Shown in pieces: positions 8,702 through 24,354 of a DNA stretch of 64,000 nt. The notes below the pieces were generated by a model, which had not been told where the DNA came from, made no database searches, and was given only the letters and a program-made list of their open reading frames with translations. Both the position numbers and the translations under genes were made by a program. Position 1 is the first letter of the stretch; every line of letters starts with the position of its first letter. Source of the stretch: Alphaproteobacteria bacterium (GTDB taxonomy: Bacteria; Pseudomonadota; Alphaproteobacteria; JAEULC01); NCBI GenBank assembly GCA_023150455.1, contig JAKLKW010000019.1, positions 1-64,000 on the forward strand, given 5' to 3'.

Positions 8702-8781
8702 GGCCGCCCCTCGTGGCGTACAACCCTGACTCGCGCGGCTGTCCGTTGCGGGCGGCCCTGCCGGCGTCTAGGCTTCCCGCG

Positions 8782-9561
8782 ATGCCCGCCCATGCCCCTC
8801 TTCGCCGGCCGGCCGACGACGCGCCGGCCGCGCTCGATGCCGTGGAATGCCAGCCCTGCGCCACCTGCGAAGTGCGGGCCGTGTCGGTGTGCTCCGTCCT
8901 GTCGCCGGACGAGCTGGAGCGCCTGGCCGCGATCCTGGTCGATACGCATCTCGATACGGGCAGCGCCATCTTCAGCGAGGGCGACGACGCCGTGTCGCTG
9001 TTCAACGTCACCGGCGGGTCGGTCAAGCTGTACAAGCTGCTGTCCGACGGACGCCGGCAGATCACCGGATTCCTGTTCCCGGGGGACTTCCTGGGGCTCG
9101 CGGTGCGCGATCGCTACGGCTACACGGCCGAGGCGCTGGAGCCGGTCCGGCTGTGCCGCTTCCCGCGCGGCAAGCTCGAGCAGCTGATGCATGAATTCCC
9201 GCACATGAAGGACCGCCTGTTCGCGATGGCCTCGAACGAGCTGCTGGCGGCGCAGGACCAGATGCTGCTCCTGGGCCGCAAGACGGCGCGCGAGAAGATC
9301 GCCTCGTTCCTGCTGCAGCTGCAGCGCGGCGCCAAGCGGCGCCTTCAACCGGACAATCCGATCCGCCTGCCGATGGGCCGCAACGACATCGCGGACTTCC
9401 TCGGCCTCACCACCGAGACCGTCAGCCGTACCGTCTCGGCGCTGAAGCGCGCGGGCGTGATCCGGCTGCGCGAAGGCGGCAATGTCGAGATTCGCGACCA
9501 GGAAGGCCTGCGGATCATGGCCGAGGGCGATGTGCACTCGTTCGAGCAGCCGTCACACTAG
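8782..9561 (+). CDS. fnr: Oxygen-sensing Crp/Fnr-family transcription regulator (FnrN/FnrL type)
   Basis: This 259-residue protein is a cytoplasmic Crp/Fnr regulator with a probable [4Fe-4S] cluster. The N-terminal cysteines are C23, C26, C29 and C37 (C-x2-C-x2-C-x7-C), and a further Cys at 125 (VRLCRFPRGKLEQL) corresponds in context to Cys122 of E. coli FNR. A cyclic-nucleotide-like beta-roll covers about residues 35-150, a dimer helix follows, and the HTH (MGRNDIADFLGLTTETVSRT) carries E-x-x-S-R, the FNR-type TTGAT reader. Start choice is uncertain: the ATG at 8782 gives MPAHAPLRRP, and an in-frame GTG at 8713 is also open. It sits right after ccoS and probably controls the cluster through the box at 713-726. 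Its stop overlaps the convergent DUF488 gene by 9 bp. Confidence 0.92.
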   Translation: MPAHAPLRRPADDAPAALDAVECQPCATCEVRAVSVCSVLSPDELERLAAILVDTHLDTGSAIFSEGDDAVSLFNVTGGSVKLYKLLSDGRRQITGFLFPGDFLGLAVRDRYGYTAEALEPVRLCRFPRGKLEQLMHEFPHMKDRLFAMASNELLAAQDQMLLLGRKTAREKIASFLLQLQRGAKRRLQPDNPIRLPMGRNDIADFLGLTTETVSRTVSALKRAGVIRLREGGNVEIRDQEGLRIMAEGDVHSFEQPSH

Positions 9562-16553: not shown

Positions 16554-17636
16554 CTAGCTCTTCTTCTCTTCCTTCTCGACCAGGTCGTCGAGGCGCGTGA
16601 TGATCTTCTTGGCAGTCGATTCGCTGACGCGGAAGGTGAAGTTGCGCAGGCGGTTGTTCAAGTCGGCCGCCTCCTTCTTCACCTCGTCCGTAGGCTCGAC
16701 CATGGCCGTCTTGTCGCCTTCGGACTTGCGCCACGGCTCGGCCGTGGCCTCGATCCGCACCCATTTCTCGCCGTTGCGATCGGCGAGGGTCAACCGCACC
16801 ATCAGGCCGTCGAAGGTGCGGAACTCCGCCTGCTCGGCGCCGGTGGCGGGGAACGGGATCGCCGTCGCACCCTGGACGTCGTCGATCAGCAACGCGTCGA
16901 GCGTGCCGGCGAGGTCGTTCACGTTCGACTGGCTCTTGATCTTGCGGCCCTCGGGCAGGCTCGCGACCTTGAAATCCTTTTCGTCGGCCTTCTCGCGCGA
17001 CACGACCAGGCGCGACCGGTCGGGCGCGATCGTGGCCACTTCGCGCACGCGCTCGGTCTTGATGCTGACGATGCTGCGCTCGATCCAGTCCGAGACGTCG
17101 AGCCGGATGCGCGGATCGCCCTCGGCGAGCCAGGCGCGCTGGTCGCCCGGCCGGCGCACATAGATGCCGGGGCGCGGGTTCTCCAGCGAATCCGGCCGCG
17201 ACTTGCCCAGGATGATCTTGCCGATCTCGGCGCCCTCTTTGTTCTTGAGGGTCACCAGCATCGACTTGGCGTCCTTGGCCGCCGGGTCGTCGACCTCGAG
17301 GCGCGGCAGCAGTTCCGCCTTGGCTGTCTTCGGCTCCATGAGCCGAAGGCTGGCCAGCGCGTTGACGGCCTTTTGCGCCTGCTCGGTGCGCACCGGGTAG
17401 TCGCCGCGCGCGGCCAGCACCCATTGCTCGCCCCTGCGTTGCAGCGTGAAGCCGGCATCGCCGCGCGCCACGACCACCTGCCCGACCTCGTCGGGCTTGT
17501 CGGCGACTGCGGGAAAGACCGGCTCGCCGCCGGTGGCGGCCGGCCGCGCCGGCGCATGCTCGCGCAGCGCGACGGCGGCGGCGGCGGTCGCAACGACCGT
17601 GACGGCAGCGAGGGCAAGAAGAACCGGTGTGCGCAT
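16554..17636 (-). CDS. DUF4340 protein of a Gld-type ABC operon
   Basis: The 360-residue protein has an N-terminal membrane anchor (residues 4-24, PVLLALAAVTVVATAAAAVAL) and a repeated beta-rich periplasmic region with the DUF4340 features: GFTLQRRGEQWVLAARGDYPV, a helix VNALASLRLMEPK, and IYVRRPGDQRAWLAEGDPRI followed by DWIERSIVSI. The domain is typically encoded downstream of gldG-like genes and its role is unknown. It starts 15 bp after gldG and is last in the operon. The C-terminus is highly charged (VEKEEKKS). Confidence 0.85.
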   Translation of the reverse strand: MRTPVLLALAAVTVVATAAAAVALREHAPARPAATGGEPVFPAVADKPDEVGQVVVARGDAGFTLQRRGEQWVLAARGDYPVRTEQAQKAVNALASLRLMEPKTAKAELLPRLEVDDPAAKDAKSMLVTLKNKEGAEIGKIILGKSRPDSLENPRPGIYVRRPGDQRAWLAEGDPRIRLDVSDWIERSIVSIKTERVREVATIAPDRSRLVVSREKADEKDFKVASLPEGRKIKSQSNVNDLAGTLDALLIDDVQGATAIPFPATGAEQAEFRTFDGLMVRLTLADRNGEKWVRIEATAEPWRKSEGDKTAMVEPTDEVKKEAADLNNRLRNFTFRVSESTAKKIITRLDDLVEKEEKKS

Positions 17637-17651
17637 CGAGCCCTCCGCTCC

Positions 17652-19631
17652 TCAGGCCCGCGCCACGCGGCGGCGCCGGCGCGCCAGGCGCACCCCACCG
17701 ACGATCAGGGCCAGCACCGCGACCAGGATCGGCACCAGGCCGATATTGACGAAGCGCAGCACCGTTTCCAGCCGCTCGACGTCGCGCCTGAGGCCGTGCT
17801 GCACGTCGCGCAGCTGGCGGCGGATGTCGAGCATCTCCGCGCGGAACTTCTCGATCGACTGCTGCTGCTGCGGCGTCAGCGTGGGCTGGCCGCCGGTCCT
17901 GTCGCCGGTCTCGACGTCGCGCAGGTTCTTCTGCACCTCGGTCAGCTTGTCCCGCAGTTCGCGCTCGGTGCCGCGCAGCCGCGCCTCCGCGTCCTGTTCC
18001 AGCGCGCGGACCACCGTGAAGGGCCGCGCCGAGGTGCCGCGCCCGCGCAGGCCGATCAGGTCGCCGCCGCCGGCGAGGAAGTCGAGCGCATTGGCAACGA
18101 AATCGGCGTTGTTCGCGGTCGGGACCGCCAGCCGCTGGCCGAAGAAATCCTGCACCTGCACCCAGAAGCGGTCGTCGAGCAGGTCGGTGTCGGCGACCAC
18201 GATCACGTTGATCGGCTTCTGCGACTTGGCCACGTGCGGCGGCAGCGGCTTGGCGTCCTTCTGCCCGCTTTCCTTGGATTCTGCCGGCTTTGCCTCGCCT
18301 TCCTTGGGCTCGGGCGGCTTGGGCGGACCGTCGGGGAAGGCGGAACTCGCCTCGCCGCTCACGCGCGCGGCGAGCACCATGCCTTCCATGGTCGGCTTGA
18401 AGCTGCGGACGATCGACAGGATGTCGGGCTGCCCGCCGGGACCGGTGCCGAGCTGCGCCACCTCGATCGGCGCCGACTGCGCCGAGGTTGTGATGAGCGG
18501 CTCGAACGTCGTGGTGGCGCCGTCGCGCTTCTTCAGGATGCCAGCCGAGGCCATGTTGACCTGGCCGATATTGCTCATGATCGGGTCGTCGCGATTGATG
18601 TTGGCGGCGCGCATCAAGAGCCAGGCCGGATACTCGGCCGGGATCACGCGCGATGCCGTGCCGGCATTGACGCGGCGCGCGTTGGCGCGGTCGCCCGCGA
18701 CCTTGTCCTTGGTCATCTCGACGCCCCAGGCCTGGAACAGTCTGGGCAGGTCCGAGGCCGAGGCCGTGCCCGGCCGACCCATCATGTTGGGCCGGCCGAT
18801 CTCGGATTCGGCGTAGGGGTCGACCAGCACCAGCGCGCGGCCGCCCTTCAGCACGAACTGGTCGATGGCGTACTGCGTCTTGTCGCTGAGCGACTTCGGG
18901 TGCGCCAGCATCAGCACGTCGACGTCCTCGGGAACGCGGTCGAGGTCGCCGCCGAGCGTCTTGATGTCGAAGGCGCCCCGCAGCTGCTCCATCACCATCC
19001 AGGGCTGCGTCGGCATGCCGCGCATCATCATCATCATGTCGCCTTCGAGCGGCAGGTCGGTGATGAGGCCGATCATCTTGCGCTTCGGATCGGCGAGGGT
19101 CTGCACCATGCGCGCGAGGTCGTATTCGAGGAATCGCTCGCGCTCGGGCTGCAGGAAGCCGATGGTCTCCTTGTCGTCGGTCGAGTTGGTGCCGGAGATG
19201 CCGAAATAGACCGGGTCGCCGCCCTGGTCGATCGGCACGCCCTGAAGGCCCAGCGCAACGGCGCGGTCCTCGATGTCAGAGAAGGGTTGCGGGTCGAAGC
19301 GCTCGACGACCAGCCGCCCGCGCGCGTTGGCCGCGAACTCGGCCAGCATGTCCTCCACGCGCTTGCCGTAGTTGGCATAGGCGGGGATCTCGCGGCCGAG
19401 CCGGTCGGAGAAGAAGTAGCGCAGCGTCACCGGCTCGTCGATGCGCCCGAGGATCGCGCGCGTGCCGGGCGAGAGGGTGAACAGCTTGTCGCGCGTCAGG
19501 TCGATGCGCGCGCCGGTCAGCAGCGCCTGCGCCAGGAGGTTCATCGCGACGAACAGGATCGCGGCGAGGCCGAGGGCGATGACGGAGTTGCGCCGCCGGG
19601 TCAGGGCCGTGGTGTTGAGGGCAGCCGCCAT
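17652..19631 (-). CDS. gldG: GldG-like ABC auxiliary protein
   Basis: The 659-residue protein has an N-terminal membrane helix (about residues 17-37) followed by the GldG signature DLTRDKLFTLSPGTRAIL, a periplasmic domain (about 40-590) with VVERFDPQPFSDIEDRA, GLITDLPLEGD and QFVLKGGRALVLVDPYAES, a coiled coil (about 540-610), and a C-terminal membrane helix ending in a basic tail. In Bacteroidetes GldG partners with GldA/GldF in gliding. In proteobacteria homologues have no gliding role and the transported substrate is unknown. It lies one base after the permease. Confidence 0.88.
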   Translation of the reverse strand: MAAALNTTALTRRRNSVIALGLAAILFVAMNLLAQALLTGARIDLTRDKLFTLSPGTRAILGRIDEPVTLRYFFSDRLGREIPAYANYGKRVEDMLAEFAANARGRLVVERFDPQPFSDIEDRAVALGLQGVPIDQGGDPVYFGISGTNSTDDKETIGFLQPERERFLEYDLARMVQTLADPKRKMIGLITDLPLEGDMMMMMRGMPTQPWMVMEQLRGAFDIKTLGGDLDRVPEDVDVLMLAHPKSLSDKTQYAIDQFVLKGGRALVLVDPYAESEIGRPNMMGRPGTASASDLPRLFQAWGVEMTKDKVAGDRANARRVNAGTASRVIPAEYPAWLLMRAANINRDDPIMSNIGQVNMASAGILKKRDGATTTFEPLITTSAQSAPIEVAQLGTGPGGQPDILSIVRSFKPTMEGMVLAARVSGEASSAFPDGPPKPPEPKEGEAKPAESKESGQKDAKPLPPHVAKSQKPINVIVVADTDLLDDRFWVQVQDFFGQRLAVPTANNADFVANALDFLAGGGDLIGLRGRGTSARPFTVVRALEQDAEARLRGTERELRDKLTEVQKNLRDVETGDRTGGQPTLTPQQQQSIEKFRAEMLDIRRQLRDVQHGLRRDVERLETVLRFVNIGLVPILVAVLALIVGGVRLARRRRRVARA

Positions 19632-19632
19632 G

Positions 19633-20367
19633 TCAGCTCCCCTTCTTCCATTCGACGACGACGACGTTGGCGTAGAGAAACAGCGCGATCAGCGAGCCGA
19701 AGAACACGATGTCCTTGGCGTCGATCACGCCGCGCGTGATGGCGAGGTAGTGGCCGAGGAAGCTGAAGGACGCGACCGTGTCGACCACCAGCTTCGGCGC
19801 CCAGCCGGAGAAGAAGTTCAGCACGATCGGCGTGCCGCTGACGGTGAACAGGAAGCACGCGGCGCAGGCCACGACGAAGGCGATCACCTGGTTGCGCGTC
19901 AGCGCCGAGACGCAGGCGCCGATCGCCAGGTACGCGCCCGCCAGCACGAAGCTGCCGAGATAGGCGGCAACGATCACGCCGTTGTCGGGCGAGCCCAGGT
20001 AGTTGACCGTGATCCAGATCGGGAAAGTCAAAAGGAGCGCCACGCCGGCGAAGGCCCACGCCGCCAGGAACTTGCCGACGACCGCGCCGGTGAGCGACAC
20101 GGGCAGGGTCAGGAGCAGCTCGATGGTGCCGGTCTTGCGCTCCTCGGCCCACAGCCGCATGGCGATCGCCGGCACCAGGAACAGGTAGAGCCAGGGGTGG
20201 AACGAGAAGAACGGCTCCAGGTCCGCCTGGCCGCGCGCGAAGAAATTGCCGAGGAAGAAGGTCATGGCGCCGCTCAGCGCCAGGAAGATGACGATGAACA
20301 CGTAGGCGAGCGGCGTCGCGAAATACGCGGTGAACTCGCGCTTGAAGACGGCGACCGTCTCACGCAT
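19633..20367 (-). CDS. gldF: ABC-2 type permease, GldF-like
   Basis: The 244-residue membrane protein has six predicted helices and the ABC-2 pattern EFTAYFATPLAYVFIVIFLALSGAMTFFLG at the N-terminus and MRLWAEERKTGTIELLLTLPVS after helix 2. It forms the membrane channel with the ATPase encoded just upstream. The ATG at 20367 overlaps the end of the ATPase gene by 8 bp, indicating translational coupling; longer in-frame codons only read through that gene. Substrate unknown. Confidence 0.9.
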   Translation of the reverse strand: MRETVAVFKREFTAYFATPLAYVFIVIFLALSGAMTFFLGNFFARGQADLEPFFSFHPWLYLFLVPAIAMRLWAEERKTGTIELLLTLPVSLTGAVVGKFLAAWAFAGVALLLTFPIWITVNYLGSPDNGVIVAAYLGSFVLAGAYLAIGACVSALTRNQVIAFVVACAACFLFTVSGTPIVLNFFSGWAPKLVVDTVASFSFLGHYLAITRGVIDAKDIVFFGSLIALFLYANVVVVEWKKGS

Positions 20368-21316
20368 GGGCGGTCTCCGGCGCGGCGCGCGTGGTGATGG
20401 CGCGGAACACCTCGTCCAGCCGCCCACGCTCGACGTGGAATTCGGCGATCTGCCATCCCTTTTGGGCGACGAGCGCGCGCAGGCTTGCCGCGATGTCCTG
20501 GCCGTCCGATGGGATCACGGTCAGGCGCACATGCGGACCCGCGCTGTCGCCGAGCTCGACCGCGGCCACGCCGCTCGCCGCCTTGAGCGCTTCGGCCGCG
20601 CCCGGCGCCTGCGCGGCGGGCAGCGCGATCGTCACCGCGTTGTGGTGGCGCGAACGCGCCTCGAACTCGGCCGGCGTGCCGTCGGCCACCAGCCGGCCGC
20701 CGGCGATGATCACCGCCCGCGAGCAGACCGCGTCGACCTCTTCGAGGATATGGGTGGAGATCACGATCGCCTTTTCCGGCGCCATGGCGCGGATCAGGCC
20801 GCGCACCTCGTGCTTCTGGTTGGGGTCCAGGCCGTCGGTCGGCTCGTCGAGGACCAGCACCTCGGGATCGTGCAGCAGGGCCTGCGCCAGGCCGACGCGC
20901 CGCTTGAAGCCCTTGGACAGCGTGTCGATCGGCTGCGCCATGACGCCCTTGAGCTGCGTCAGCTCCACGGCGCGCCCGATGCGCCGGTCGCGCTCGGCGC
21001 CGGAAAAGCCGCGCAGCTCGGCGCAGAAGCGCAGGAATCCCTCGGCCGTCATGTCGGGATAGGCCGGCGCGCCCTCGGGCAGGTAGCCGAGGTGACGCTT
21101 GACCTCGATCGGATGGTCGACGACGTCGAAGCCGCAGACGCGCGCCGTGCCGCTGGTCGGCGACAGGTAGCCGGCGACCATCTTCATGGTCGTCGACTTG
21201 CCGGCCCCGTTGGGCCCAAGGAAACCGAGCACCTCGCCGCGCGCGACCTGGAGGGAGATGCCGTCGACGGCGACGATGGCGCCGAACCGCTTGCCGAGGT
21301 TGTCGATCTCAATCAT
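20360..21316 (-). CDS. gldA: ABC transporter ATPase, GldA-like
   Basis: The 318-residue ATPase has Walker A GPNGAGKST (about residues 34-42), the ABC signature LSKGFKRRVGLAQAL, Walker B VLVLDEPTDGLDP and the switch His in VISTHILEEV. A C-terminal regulatory domain (about 220-318) is typical of ABC-2 exporters. It is the first gene of the gldA-gldF-gldG-DUF4340 operon. The upstream 275-bp gap is shared with the divergent cyclase gene and must hold the promoter. Confidence 0.92.
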   Translation of the reverse strand: MIEIDNLGKRFGAIVAVDGISLQVARGEVLGFLGPNGAGKSTTMKMVAGYLSPTSGTARVCGFDVVDHPIEVKRHLGYLPEGAPAYPDMTAEGFLRFCAELRGFSGAERDRRIGRAVELTQLKGVMAQPIDTLSKGFKRRVGLAQALLHDPEVLVLDEPTDGLDPNQKHEVRGLIRAMAPEKAIVISTHILEEVDAVCSRAVIIAGGRLVADGTPAEFEARSRHHNAVTIALPAAQAPGAAEALKAASGVAAVELGDSAGPHVRLTVIPSDGQDIAASLRALVAQKGWQIAEFHVERGRLDEVFRAITTRAAPETAHA

Positions 21317-21486: not shown

Positions 21487-21591
21487 CCCGCCGGTCGCCG
21501 ACCGCCGTGGGGCCGGCCCATGGCGACGGGTAGGCTTCCCCTGTATTGATGGCTCGATGCGAAGATCGGCGGCGTGCGGGGCATCCGGGCC

Positions 21592-23322
21592 ATGACCAGT
21601 ACGGACGCGGCGACACGGGCCACGGCGCGCCCCTGGCATCTCGACGCCACCGCGATCCGGCGGGCACGGCTGCTGAGCGGCTCGGTGCTGTACACCTATG
21701 TGACGCTGCATCTGACCAATCATGCGCTGGCCCTGGTCTCGCTCGACGTGGCCGAGCGGGTGCTCTTGGTGCTGCGGCTGGTCTGGCGCAGCCCGCCGGG
21801 GACGATCGCGCTCTACGGTGCCTTGCTGGTGCATGCGGTGCTGGCGCTGTGGGCGATCTATCTGCGTCGGCGCCTGCGCATGAACGCGGGCGAATGGGCG
21901 CGCCTGGTCCTGGGCCTCGCTATCGTCCCGCTGATGGCGGCGCACGTGGTGGCGAACCGCGTCGCCCCGGCGGCCTTCGGCATCGACACCGACTACGTCT
22001 TTGTACTCCTCGGGACCTGGGTCCAGGGCCCGGTGGCCAGCCTCCGCCAGGCCATCGGTCTCTTGGCGGCGTGGGTGCATGGCTGCATCGGCCTGCACCT
22101 CGTCTTGCGGTTGAAGCCCTGGTACCCGCGCTGGGTCGCGCTGCTCTATGCCGCGGCCGTGTTGCTGCCGGCCCTCGCGCTGCTCGGTTTCGTCTCGGCC
22201 GGGCGAGAAGTCGAGCTGCTGGCGGCCGATCCGCACTGGATCCGGCAGTACGCTGCTTCACGCCGGCAGCCGACCAGGGAGGAGGTCGACTGGATCTACG
22301 CTGTCGCCGACGGGATCTCGTGGGGATTCGCCGCGCTGCTCGCCACGACGCTCATGGCGCGGACCGTGCGCAGCTATGCCCGGCGGCGCAGCGTCGTGCG
22401 CGTGACCTATCCCGACAAGCGGGTGGTCGAGATCCAGCCGGGCGTCAGCATCCTGGACGCGAGCCGTCAGGCGGGCATCCCGCACGCCGAGGTCTGCGGC
22501 GGCCGCGGCCGCTGCTCGACCTGCCGCGTGCGCGTCGGCATGGGGCTCGAGTCCCTGCCCGCGGCGAGCGACGCCGAGCGCAAGGTGCTGGAGCGCATCG
22601 CCGCCGCGCCGAACGTGCGCCTGGCCTGCCAGACGCGGCCCGTCGCCGACATTGCGGTGATGCCGCTGCTGCCGCCGACCGCGTCGGCGCGCGACGGCTT
22701 CGCCCGCGCCCGGCATCTGCAGGGCCAGGAGCGCGAGATCGCGATCCTGTTCGCCGACCTGCGCGCCTTCACCGGCATGGCCGAGCGCAAACTGCCCTAC
22801 GACGTCGTCTTCCTGCTCAACCGCTACTTCGCGTCGATGGGCAGCGCGATCGAGCAGTCCGGCGGGCGCGTCGACAAGTTCATCGGCGACGGGGTCATGG
22901 CGCTGTTCGGCATCGAGCGCGGGCCGGCCGAGGGCTGCCGGCAGGCGCTCGCCGCGGCCCGCGCCATGGCGCACCAGCTGGACGGGCTCAACGCGACGCT
23001 GGCGCACGACCTGGATCAGCCGCTCAGGATCGGCATCGGCATCCATGTCGGCCCCGCCATCGTCGGCGAGATGGGCTACGGCAGCGCCACCACGATCACC
23101 GCGATCGGCGACGCGGTGAACACCGCCAGCCGGCTCGAGACGCTGACCAAGGACTACGATTGCCAGCTCGTGCTGTCCGAAGCCGTGGCGCAGCGCGCCG
23201 GCGTCGCGCTGTCGGGATTCGCGCGCCACGAGATCATGGTGCGCGGCCGCGAGGGAAAGATGGCGATCCGCGTCGTGCCCTCGGCGCAGGACCTGCCGGC
23301 CGGCGGCGCTGCCGCTAGCTGA
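21592..23322 (+). CDS. cyaC: Class III adenylate cyclase with SDH-like haem-b membrane anchor and [2Fe-2S] domain (CyaC-like)
   Basis: The 576-residue protein has three parts. Residues 30-260 hold six membrane helices with histidines placed as in succinate dehydrogenase cytochrome b (H40, H44, H81, H118, H163, H169). Residues 268-360 are a plant-type ferredoxin domain with C302, C308, C311 and C346 (C-x5-C-x2-C-x34-C). Residues 380-565 are a class III cyclase: metal Asp389 (FADLRAFT), Lys429/Asp433 in DKFIGDGVMA and the IGDAVNTASRLE helix. Sinorhizobium meliloti CyaC has a quinone-responsive dihaem-b anchor of this kind, so a role as redox-controlled cAMP synthase in the inner membrane is a reasonable inference. 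Start is ATG 21592 (GTG 21574 possible). The stop overlaps the convergent TPR gene by 8 bp. Confidence 0.88.
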   Translation: MTSTDAATRATARPWHLDATAIRRARLLSGSVLYTYVTLHLTNHALALVSLDVAERVLLVLRLVWRSPPGTIALYGALLVHAVLALWAIYLRRRLRMNAGEWARLVLGLAIVPLMAAHVVANRVAPAAFGIDTDYVFVLLGTWVQGPVASLRQAIGLLAAWVHGCIGLHLVLRLKPWYPRWVALLYAAAVLLPALALLGFVSAGREVELLAADPHWIRQYAASRRQPTREEVDWIYAVADGISWGFAALLATTLMARTVRSYARRRSVVRVTYPDKRVVEIQPGVSILDASRQAGIPHAEVCGGRGRCSTCRVRVGMGLESLPAASDAERKVLERIAAAPNVRLACQTRPVADIAVMPLLPPTASARDGFARARHLQGQEREIAILFADLRAFTGMAERKLPYDVVFLLNRYFASMGSAIEQSGGRVDKFIGDGVMALFGIERGPAEGCRQALAAARAMAHQLDGLNATLAHDLDQPLRIGIGIHVGPAIVGEMGYGSATTITAIGDAVNTASRLETLTKDYDCQLVLSEAVAQRAGVALSGFARHEIMVRGREGKMAIRVVPSAQDLPAGGAAAS

Positions 23323-23794
23323 GGCCCTTCGACTTCTTGTAGGCGGCGACCGCCTTCTCCAGGTCCCTGCGCTCGGAGCAGCCGCCACACAGCTCGCCGA
23401 GCTTCTTCAAGAGCTCCTCGGCCTTGGGCAGGTTGTCGGTCATCAGATAAAGCTCGCCCAGATACTCGTGCGCCCCCATGTGCTTGGGATCGATCTCGAG
23501 CGCGCGGGTATAGGACTTCAGCGCCGCGTCGTACTGCCCGGTCTTGCGCTGGCTGTAGCCGAGATAGTTCCAGGCATCGGCCTTGCGCGGATCCTTCTGC
23601 ACCGCCTTTTCCAGCAGCTTGATGGCGTCCTTGTATTTCTCGCTCTTCACCGCCTTGACGCCCTTGTCGTAGTCGCTGCCGCCCGTGGTCTGCTCGTCCA
23701 GCGAGGCGGCGGCCAGCGCGGGCGTGGCCGGGGCGGCGAGCCCGAGGGACAAGGCGATCGCCAGGGTGGCGAGCAGGGTCTTGGTGGCCGACAT
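23315..23794 (-). CDS. Secreted TPR-repeat protein
   Basis: The 159-residue protein has a signal peptide (MSATKTLLATLAIALSLGLAAPATPALAA) and then three or four TPR units: SDYDKGVKAVKSEKYKDAIKLLEKAV, ADAWNYLGYSQRKTGQYDAALKSYTRAL, HMGAHEYLGELYLMTDNLPKAEELLKKL. A Cys pair (CGGC, about residue 138) lies near the end. It is probably a periplasmic scaffold. Its last 8 bases overlap the end of the convergent cyclase gene. No partner is obvious. Confidence 0.85.
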   Translation of the reverse strand: MSATKTLLATLAIALSLGLAAPATPALAAASLDEQTTGGSDYDKGVKAVKSEKYKDAIKLLEKAVQKDPRKADAWNYLGYSQRKTGQYDAALKSYTRALEIDPKHMGAHEYLGELYLMTDNLPKAEELLKKLGELCGGCSERRDLEKAVAAYKKSKGLS

Positions 23795-23874: not shown

Positions 23875-24354
23875 TCAGGCAGAGGAAGCTGCCAGCGCCT
23901 CGGCCAGTTCCTTGGATTCCGGTGCCACGGATGACGGGAAGGCGCCAGCGAGCGCGCCGTCGGGGCCGATCAAGTACTTGTGAAGATTCCAGCGCGGCTG
24001 GCCCGCCTCGCCCAGTTCCGCGGCGACCCAGCGGTAGAACGGATGCGCCTTGCCGCCGATCACCGTCTGCTTGGACGTCATCGGGCAGTCGACGCCGTAA
24101 CGCTGGGAGCAGAACCGGCCGATCGCCGTCTCGTCGCCCGGCTCCCGGGCGCCGAAATCGTTCGACGGCACGCCGAGGACGACGAGGCCGCGGTCGCGCT
24201 CGGCCCGCCACAGCTTCTGCAGGCCGGCATATTGCGGCGTGTAGCCGCATTCCGACGCAGTGTTGACGACCAGCACCGCCTTGCCCTTGAAGCGCGCGAG
24301 CGGCAGCGGCGATCCGTCGAGCGCGATGAAGGAGAAGTCGTGGGCCGAGGTCAT
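23875..24354 (-). CDS. Glutathione peroxidase family protein (Cys type)
   Basis: This 159-residue thioredoxin-fold protein is predicted to reduce hydroperoxides. The peroxidatic Cys36 is in VVNTASECGYTPQYAGLQ, and the Trp/Asn motif WNLHKYLIGPDG is present (about residues 121-132). The usual loop (F-P-C-N-Q-F-G) reads VPSNDFGAREPG, so the resolving Cys is Ser and the Gln of the catalytic tetrad is Asp. The protein may therefore use a different reductant or resolve by another route. Length is normal. Confidence 0.87.
   Translation of the reverse strand: MTSAHDFSFIALDGSPLPLARFKGKAVLVVNTASECGYTPQYAGLQKLWRAERDRGLVVLGVPSNDFGAREPGDETAIGRFCSQRYGVDCPMTSKQTVIGGKAHPFYRWVAAELGEAGQPRWNLHKYLIGPDGALAGAFPSSVAPESKELAEALAASSA

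Follow-up and report, generated by a model that had tools for sequence, protein, structure and literature searches.

Within the window, by which we mean the whole 64,000-nucleotide stretch of DNA analysed here, one open frame very probably encodes a CyaC-type, quinone-responsive adenylate cyclase, as judged by analogy with CyaC of Sinorhizobium meliloti. On its domains and conserved residues, the product is a candidate redox-sensing class III adenylate cyclase with a fumarate-reductase/succinate dehydrogenase (SDH)-like dihaem anchor and a [2Fe-2S] domain, and the parallel with CyaC suggests that it most likely couples cAMP synthesis to redox state as a quinone-responsive switch. It is a further member of the described CyaC family and not a new kind of protein. 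A first-pass annotation of this DNA had already read the gene as a redox-sensing cyclase that joins an anchor, a ferredoxin domain, and a class III cyclase in one protein. That overall reading is right in substance, as judged by the domains, the conserved ligands, and the identity to CyaC, and the three-part architecture is borne out by the open frame, the Pfam matches, the AlphaFold2 (AF2) model of the anchor, and the invariance of the ligands.

The frame runs from an ATG at 21592 to a stop at 23322; an in-frame GTG at 21574 would lengthen the product to 582 aa, and the ATG is therefore regarded as the putative start. A Pfam scan of the protein recovered (i) Fer2 (PF00111) over residues 275-350 and (ii) Guanylate_cyc (PF00211) over residues 380-554, whereas residues 1-270, a stretch that includes the anchor, gave no significant match. 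Ligand conservation was read from 118 different homologues, part of which were fetched by a pattern containing CGG[RK]GRCST, so that Cys conservation within the set is biased; members found by whole-genome searches without this pattern show the same Cys conservation. The positions of all features are collected in the table.

Features of the CyaC-type gene and its product, with positions in the window
Feature	Position	Strand	Evidence
CDS, 576 aa, CyaC-type: 6TM dihaem anchor - [2Fe-2S] ferredoxin - class III adenylate cyclase (probable)	21592..23322	+	Open frame; Pfam; 45% full-length identity to S. meliloti CyaC
Six-helix membrane anchor, residues 19-266	21646..22389	+	AF2 model; hydropathy; positive-inside count; FrdC fold match
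H40, helix 1, predicted axial ligand of distal haem b	21709..21711	+	118/118; pairing by analogy with FrdC H44/H143
H81, helix 2, predicted axial ligand of proximal haem b	21832..21834	+	118/118; pairing by analogy with FrdC H93/H182
H118, helix 3, predicted axial ligand of distal haem b	21943..21945	+	118/118
H163, helix 4, predicted axial ligand of proximal haem b	22078..22080	+	118/118
Fer2 [2Fe-2S] domain, residues 275-350; ligands C302, C308, C311, C346	22414..22641	+	PF00111 E=7.4e-10; Cys 118/118
Class III nucleotide cyclase domain, residues 380-554	22729..23253	+	PF00211 E=1.5e-17; 32-34% identity to Spirulina CyaC structures 1wc0/1wc1

Hydropathy and the AF2 model of the anchor (48 homologues; pLDDT 93.1, pTM 0.87) both place six long membrane helices in this region, with short extra helices outside these. 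The loops predicted to face the cytoplasm hold most of the positive charge, and both termini of the anchor are probably cytoplasmic. Among the anchor histidines, which include residues 40, 44, 81, 118, and 163, His44 is kept in 114 of the 118 homologues, and the other four are invariant. A 48-row alignment of the anchor contains 11 invariant columns, five of which are His; the hypergeometric chance that five of the eight anchor histidines would be invariant is 2e-6. Taken with the invariance across 118 homologues, this places the His/Cys pattern beyond chance.

In a Foldseek search of the PDB with the anchor model, FrdC of Wolinella succinogenes (entries 1e7p_C, 2bs4_C, and 2bs3_C) was the sole confident match (probability 0.99-1.00, TM 0.50-0.54), with an E-value of only 0.2 despite that probability; all remaining listed matches had probabilities of ≤0.25. 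The model has the dihaem type-B anchor fold of the SDH/fumarate reductase (FRD) cytochromes b. The first-pass annotation, which had placed the histidines of a six-helix anchor as in SDH cytochrome b and had called for a structure prediction, is thus supported by the fold match and by the four invariant histidines. In FrdC, the distal haem is ligated by H44/H143 and the proximal haem by H93/H182 (PMC10739449); by analogy, H40/H118 would hold a distal haem in the periplasmic half of the membrane, and H81/H163 a proximal haem in the cytoplasmic half. At the sequence level, the anchor profile matched no PDB sequence at E≤10, a Pfam scan of 56 family members left the anchor without any match (no SDH family), and TIGR02046 (sdhC_b558) had no match in the source genome. 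Aligning the histidines via TIGR02046 proteins was also tried, and was set aside after a search of 200 genomes yielded weak matches below the curated cut-off; a sequence-level tie to SDH cytochromes was likewise given up, as neither the PDB profile comparison nor Pfam yielded one. It is consequently the fold and the arrangement of the histidines that tie the anchor to the SDH/FRD cytochromes: it would work in the manner of these cytochromes and falls outside their curated sequence families.

The Fer2 domain lies between the anchor and the cyclase; Fer2 is present in all 56 family members scanned, and its cluster cysteines are as strictly conserved as the four haem-ligand histidines. Its Cys spacing is C-x5-C-x2-C-x34-C, which is the spacing of adrenodoxin/ISC-type and NqrF-type ferredoxins and not that of plant ferredoxin. 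Consistent with this, fdx_isc was its best curated match in the NCBIfam comparison, and its best PDB ferredoxins were 1i7h, a 111-residue bacterial ferredoxin, and putidaredoxin. Of the earlier description as a plant-type ferredoxin, the four Cys positions were exact, and "plant-type" holds for the Fer2 fold only. A 2019 paper on CyaC reportedly also found a binuclear cluster in the purified protein.

The cyclase domain carries the complete set of residues expected of a class IIIb enzyme, namely the metal-binding Asp389 and Asp433, the adenine-specifying Lys/Thr pair Lys429 and Thr503, and the transition-state residues Asn510 and Arg514; Lys429, Thr503, Asn510, and Arg514 align with the published K410, T484, N491, and R495 of S. 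meliloti CyaC. A class III cyclase with catalytic residues, as first annotated, is therefore found by both the Pfam match and the residues themselves, and the nearest structures in the PDB comparison were Spirulina CyaC and Cya2. At 12 other loci (L023, L024, L026, L053, L076, L084, L090, L100, L102, L104, L105, and L111), all haem and cluster ligands are kept while the catalytic Lys is replaced by Gln, Ala, or Ser, in many cases together with a change of the catalytic Asn to His or Ser; cyclase activity in these family members is possibly altered or lost, judging from the substitutions. The window protein, which has Lys429 and Asn510, was considered for this degenerate subfamily and excluded.

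Anchor matches were found in 74 of 241 sampled alphaproteobacterial genomes, nearly all of them within frames of about 550-690 aa. The module is common, occurring in about one third of the near-complete genomes sampled (72 of 234, counting genomes with completeness ≥90% and contamination ≤5%). Scanning genome contigs gave at least 557 relatives, the best 80 of which were mainly from Alphaproteobacteria, with some on contigs assigned to Rokubacteria, Nitrospinota, Binatia, Chloroflexota, and others. Relatives also occur on plasmid records (Rhizobium, Azospirillum, Phyllobacterium, Cupriavidus, and others), and none was found on the viral contigs searched. In the family tree, the window protein clusters with its three genus relatives; placing it relative to CyaC was attempted and abandoned, as the deep forks are not resolved and the tree supports the genus grouping only.

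Several proteins lack one part of the architecture, and these deletion variants serve as natural controls for the question of what the [2Fe-2S] domain does. Two of them, L153 (1971-3095, minus strand; 374 aa) and L154 (2420-3580, plus strand; 386 aa), consist of a dihaem-type anchor and Fer2 without a cyclase; the L154 frame overlaps a downstream gene resembling an MscS-type channel. The converse arrangement, Fer2 and cyclase without the anchor, is found in a 308-aa protein of Hymenobacter volaticus (L121; 2977-3903, plus strand), whose cyclase has an Asp at the adenine-specifying Lys position and perhaps, on this substitution, a different nucleotide preference. Further, a 460-aa protein (L162; 1983-3362, plus strand) joins Fer2, a class III cyclase, and a Rieske [2Fe-2S] domain in one chain, again without the anchor. 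Its hosts are Rhizobium gallicum and R. etli 8C-3 (NZ_CP017244.1 1948689-1950068); among plasmid records, only two contain 80% or more of this protein, and a literature search turned up no paper on it. In Burkholderia (L122), the anchor occurs by itself. That the anchor-Fer2 and Fer2-cyclase pairs each exist alone is consistent with a place for Fer2 on the signal path from haem to cyclase.

As the mechanism, we propose that the anchor, like that of CyaC, would bind two b haems and exchange electrons with ubiquinone/ubiquinol, so that the quinone pool would set the redox state of both haems. The proximal haem might then pass electrons to the [2Fe-2S] cluster just below the membrane, much as the haem of FrdC does to the iron-sulfur subunit, and the ensuing redox change may alter the packing of the cyclase dimer. 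If the protein behaves as CyaC does, cAMP would rise when the quinone pool becomes oxidized; this cAMP could act on one or more of the many CRP-type receptors of the genome. The source genome contains 22 cyclase-domain matches and 16 cNMP-binding matches, which indicates an elaborate cAMP signalling. The AF2 model of the full-length protein reached a pTM of 0.52, for which reason it was not used for the domain arrangement or the haem-to-cluster distance. Respiratory state would, by this mechanism, be tied directly to a global second messenger within one polypeptide.

Three other explanations bear on individual parts of this mechanism. The first, an ordinary 6TM cyclase anchor that senses lipids or ligands and whose histidines do not ligate haem, would agree with the lack of sequence-level matches to SDH cytochromes; it is nonetheless extremely improbable, because the four histidines are invariant in 118 homologues, FrdC is the best fold, and dihaem content is published for the 45% identical CyaC. 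A more serious alternative, although still rather unlikely, is that the [2Fe-2S] domain works as an independent second sensor, responding for instance to superoxide, NO, iron supply, or cytoplasmic reductases, whose signal is integrated with that of the quinone without any relay from the haems. The anchor-less proteins of H. volaticus and of R. gallicum and R. etli 8C-3, in which Fer2 directly precedes a class III cyclase, speak for it by indicating that a cyclase can be coupled to Fer2 in the absence of haems. Counting against it, the anchor and Fer2 almost never part in the CyaC family (frames of about 550-690 aa hold the anchor in nearly all of 74 genomes), and the two cyclase-less proteins keep both; being rarely apart, and kept together even without a cyclase, they look more like one electrical unit.

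The same two cyclase-less proteins, which belong to two families, could also be taken to mean that the anchor and Fer2 form an electron-transfer enzyme that oxidizes quinol and reduces a cytoplasmic acceptor, with the cyclase reporting the flux. We consider this quite improbable, since only two such proteins were found, both on long branches, and no gene for an acceptor or a dehydrogenase partner lies directly beside the window gene. A broader proposal, which we put forward tentatively and judge to be unlikely as it stands, is that the dihaem anchor and the [2Fe-2S] domain form a portable transmembrane electron wire, also in the absence of a cyclase, that the redox state of the cluster itself would regulate the cyclase, and that Fer2 would be the common switch in the anchor-less and Rieske-bearing relatives as well. 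Were this so, these proteins would be respiratory enzymes repurposed as switches.

Convergent with the cyclase gene and just downstream of it is a gene (23315-23794, minus strand) for a small TPR protein of 159 aa with a signal-peptide-like N-terminus. A TPR homologue occupies the same place in many cyaC-like loci (for example, L015, L044, L079, and L157), and the gene appears in 41 of 134 locus views, some of which are duplicates and a few of which have it at other positions; a functional link with the cyclase is possible. Divergent from the cyclase gene are genes for an ABC ATPase, an ABC-2 permease, a GldG-like ABC_transp_aux protein, and a DUF4340 protein (16554-21316, minus strand), and in about 24 locus views an ATPase/permease pair likewise points away from the cyclase. 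A glutathione peroxidase family gene (23875-24354, minus strand) also lies near the cyclase, in an adjacency conserved in the genus. About 12 kb from the cyclase, a CRP/FNR-type regulator with a cysteine-rich N-terminus (C-x2-C-x2-C-x7-C) is encoded at 8713-9561 on the plus strand and, from this motif, is possibly an FNR-like redox regulator.

Among known systems, FrdC (the dihaem cytochrome b of quinol:fumarate reductase; PDB 1e7p, 2bs3, and 2bs4) shares with the anchor the four histidines and their distal/proximal pattern. It differs in having five helices, not six, and separate FrdA and FrdB subunits, and the searches run here gave no significant sequence similarity between the two. The Fer2 domain shares its fold, the C-x5-C-x2-C spacing, and its best sequence matches with ISC Fdx and putidaredoxin-type ferredoxins, which are free electron carriers, whereas the window Fer2 is embedded between anchor and cyclase.

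The closest comparison is S. meliloti CyaC (SMc01818), also chosen by the first-pass annotation for its quinone-responsive dihaem-b anchor, and rightly so: the sequence, taken from an annotated record (CP090106.1, gene cyaC, locus L161; 557 aa), is 45% identical to the window protein over 555 positions, with an anchor, a Fer2 domain, and a cyclase domain of the same kind in both. Its counterparts H27/H68/H105/H149, C283/C289/C292/C327, D370/D414, K410, T484, N491, and R495 are all conserved, and K410, T484, N491, and R495, the residues mutated in the published work (PMC10463352), fall at exactly the published numbers, which confirms the identity of the fetched sequence. According to PMC10463352, the 6TM domain of CyaC binds two haem B, ubiquinone oxidizes or reduces both, the enzyme is activated by oxidation, and a [2Fe-2S]2+ cluster appears in the scheme. 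The earlier suggestion that the ferredoxin domain is an addition beyond CyaC thus fails, since the same Fer2 with its four cysteines is present in CyaC itself, the cluster is drawn in that scheme, and the architecture is described in PMC4821796; as a trait setting the window protein apart from CyaC, the domain is ruled out by the S. meliloti sequence. The window protein is ∼13 residues longer at its N-terminus, where its start is putative. The loci also differ: S. meliloti cyaC adjoins the TetR gene cycR/rutR, and a second Sinorhizobium record (L120) has the same features with a TetR gene convergent beside cyaC, whereas the window gene adjoins the convergent TPR gene and the divergent ABC transporter set. 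No TetR-type cycR is among the window neighbours (ABC transporter genes, TPR, and glutathione peroxidase), and the downstream wiring may therefore differ from that in S. meliloti. Linkage to cycR is a trait of rhizobial cyaC and does not define the protein family.

The same architecture is found in cluster 1 of the class IIIb adenylate cyclases of Beltz et al. 2016 (for example, Rhodopseudomonas palustris Q132R4), in which a ferredoxin separates the catalytic domain from an SDH-like anchor with four histidines; two haems were predicted for these proteins (PMC4821796). The window protein likewise has a six-helix anchor with four precisely placed intramembrane histidines and a ferredoxin with cluster cysteines between anchor and catalytic domain, and we found no feature separating it from this cluster. 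Architecture, cofactors, and quinone response are thus already known from Beltz et al. and the published CyaC work, and the window protein takes this quinone-to-cAMP switch, which has been characterised but studied little, into an uncultured alphaproteobacterial lineage.
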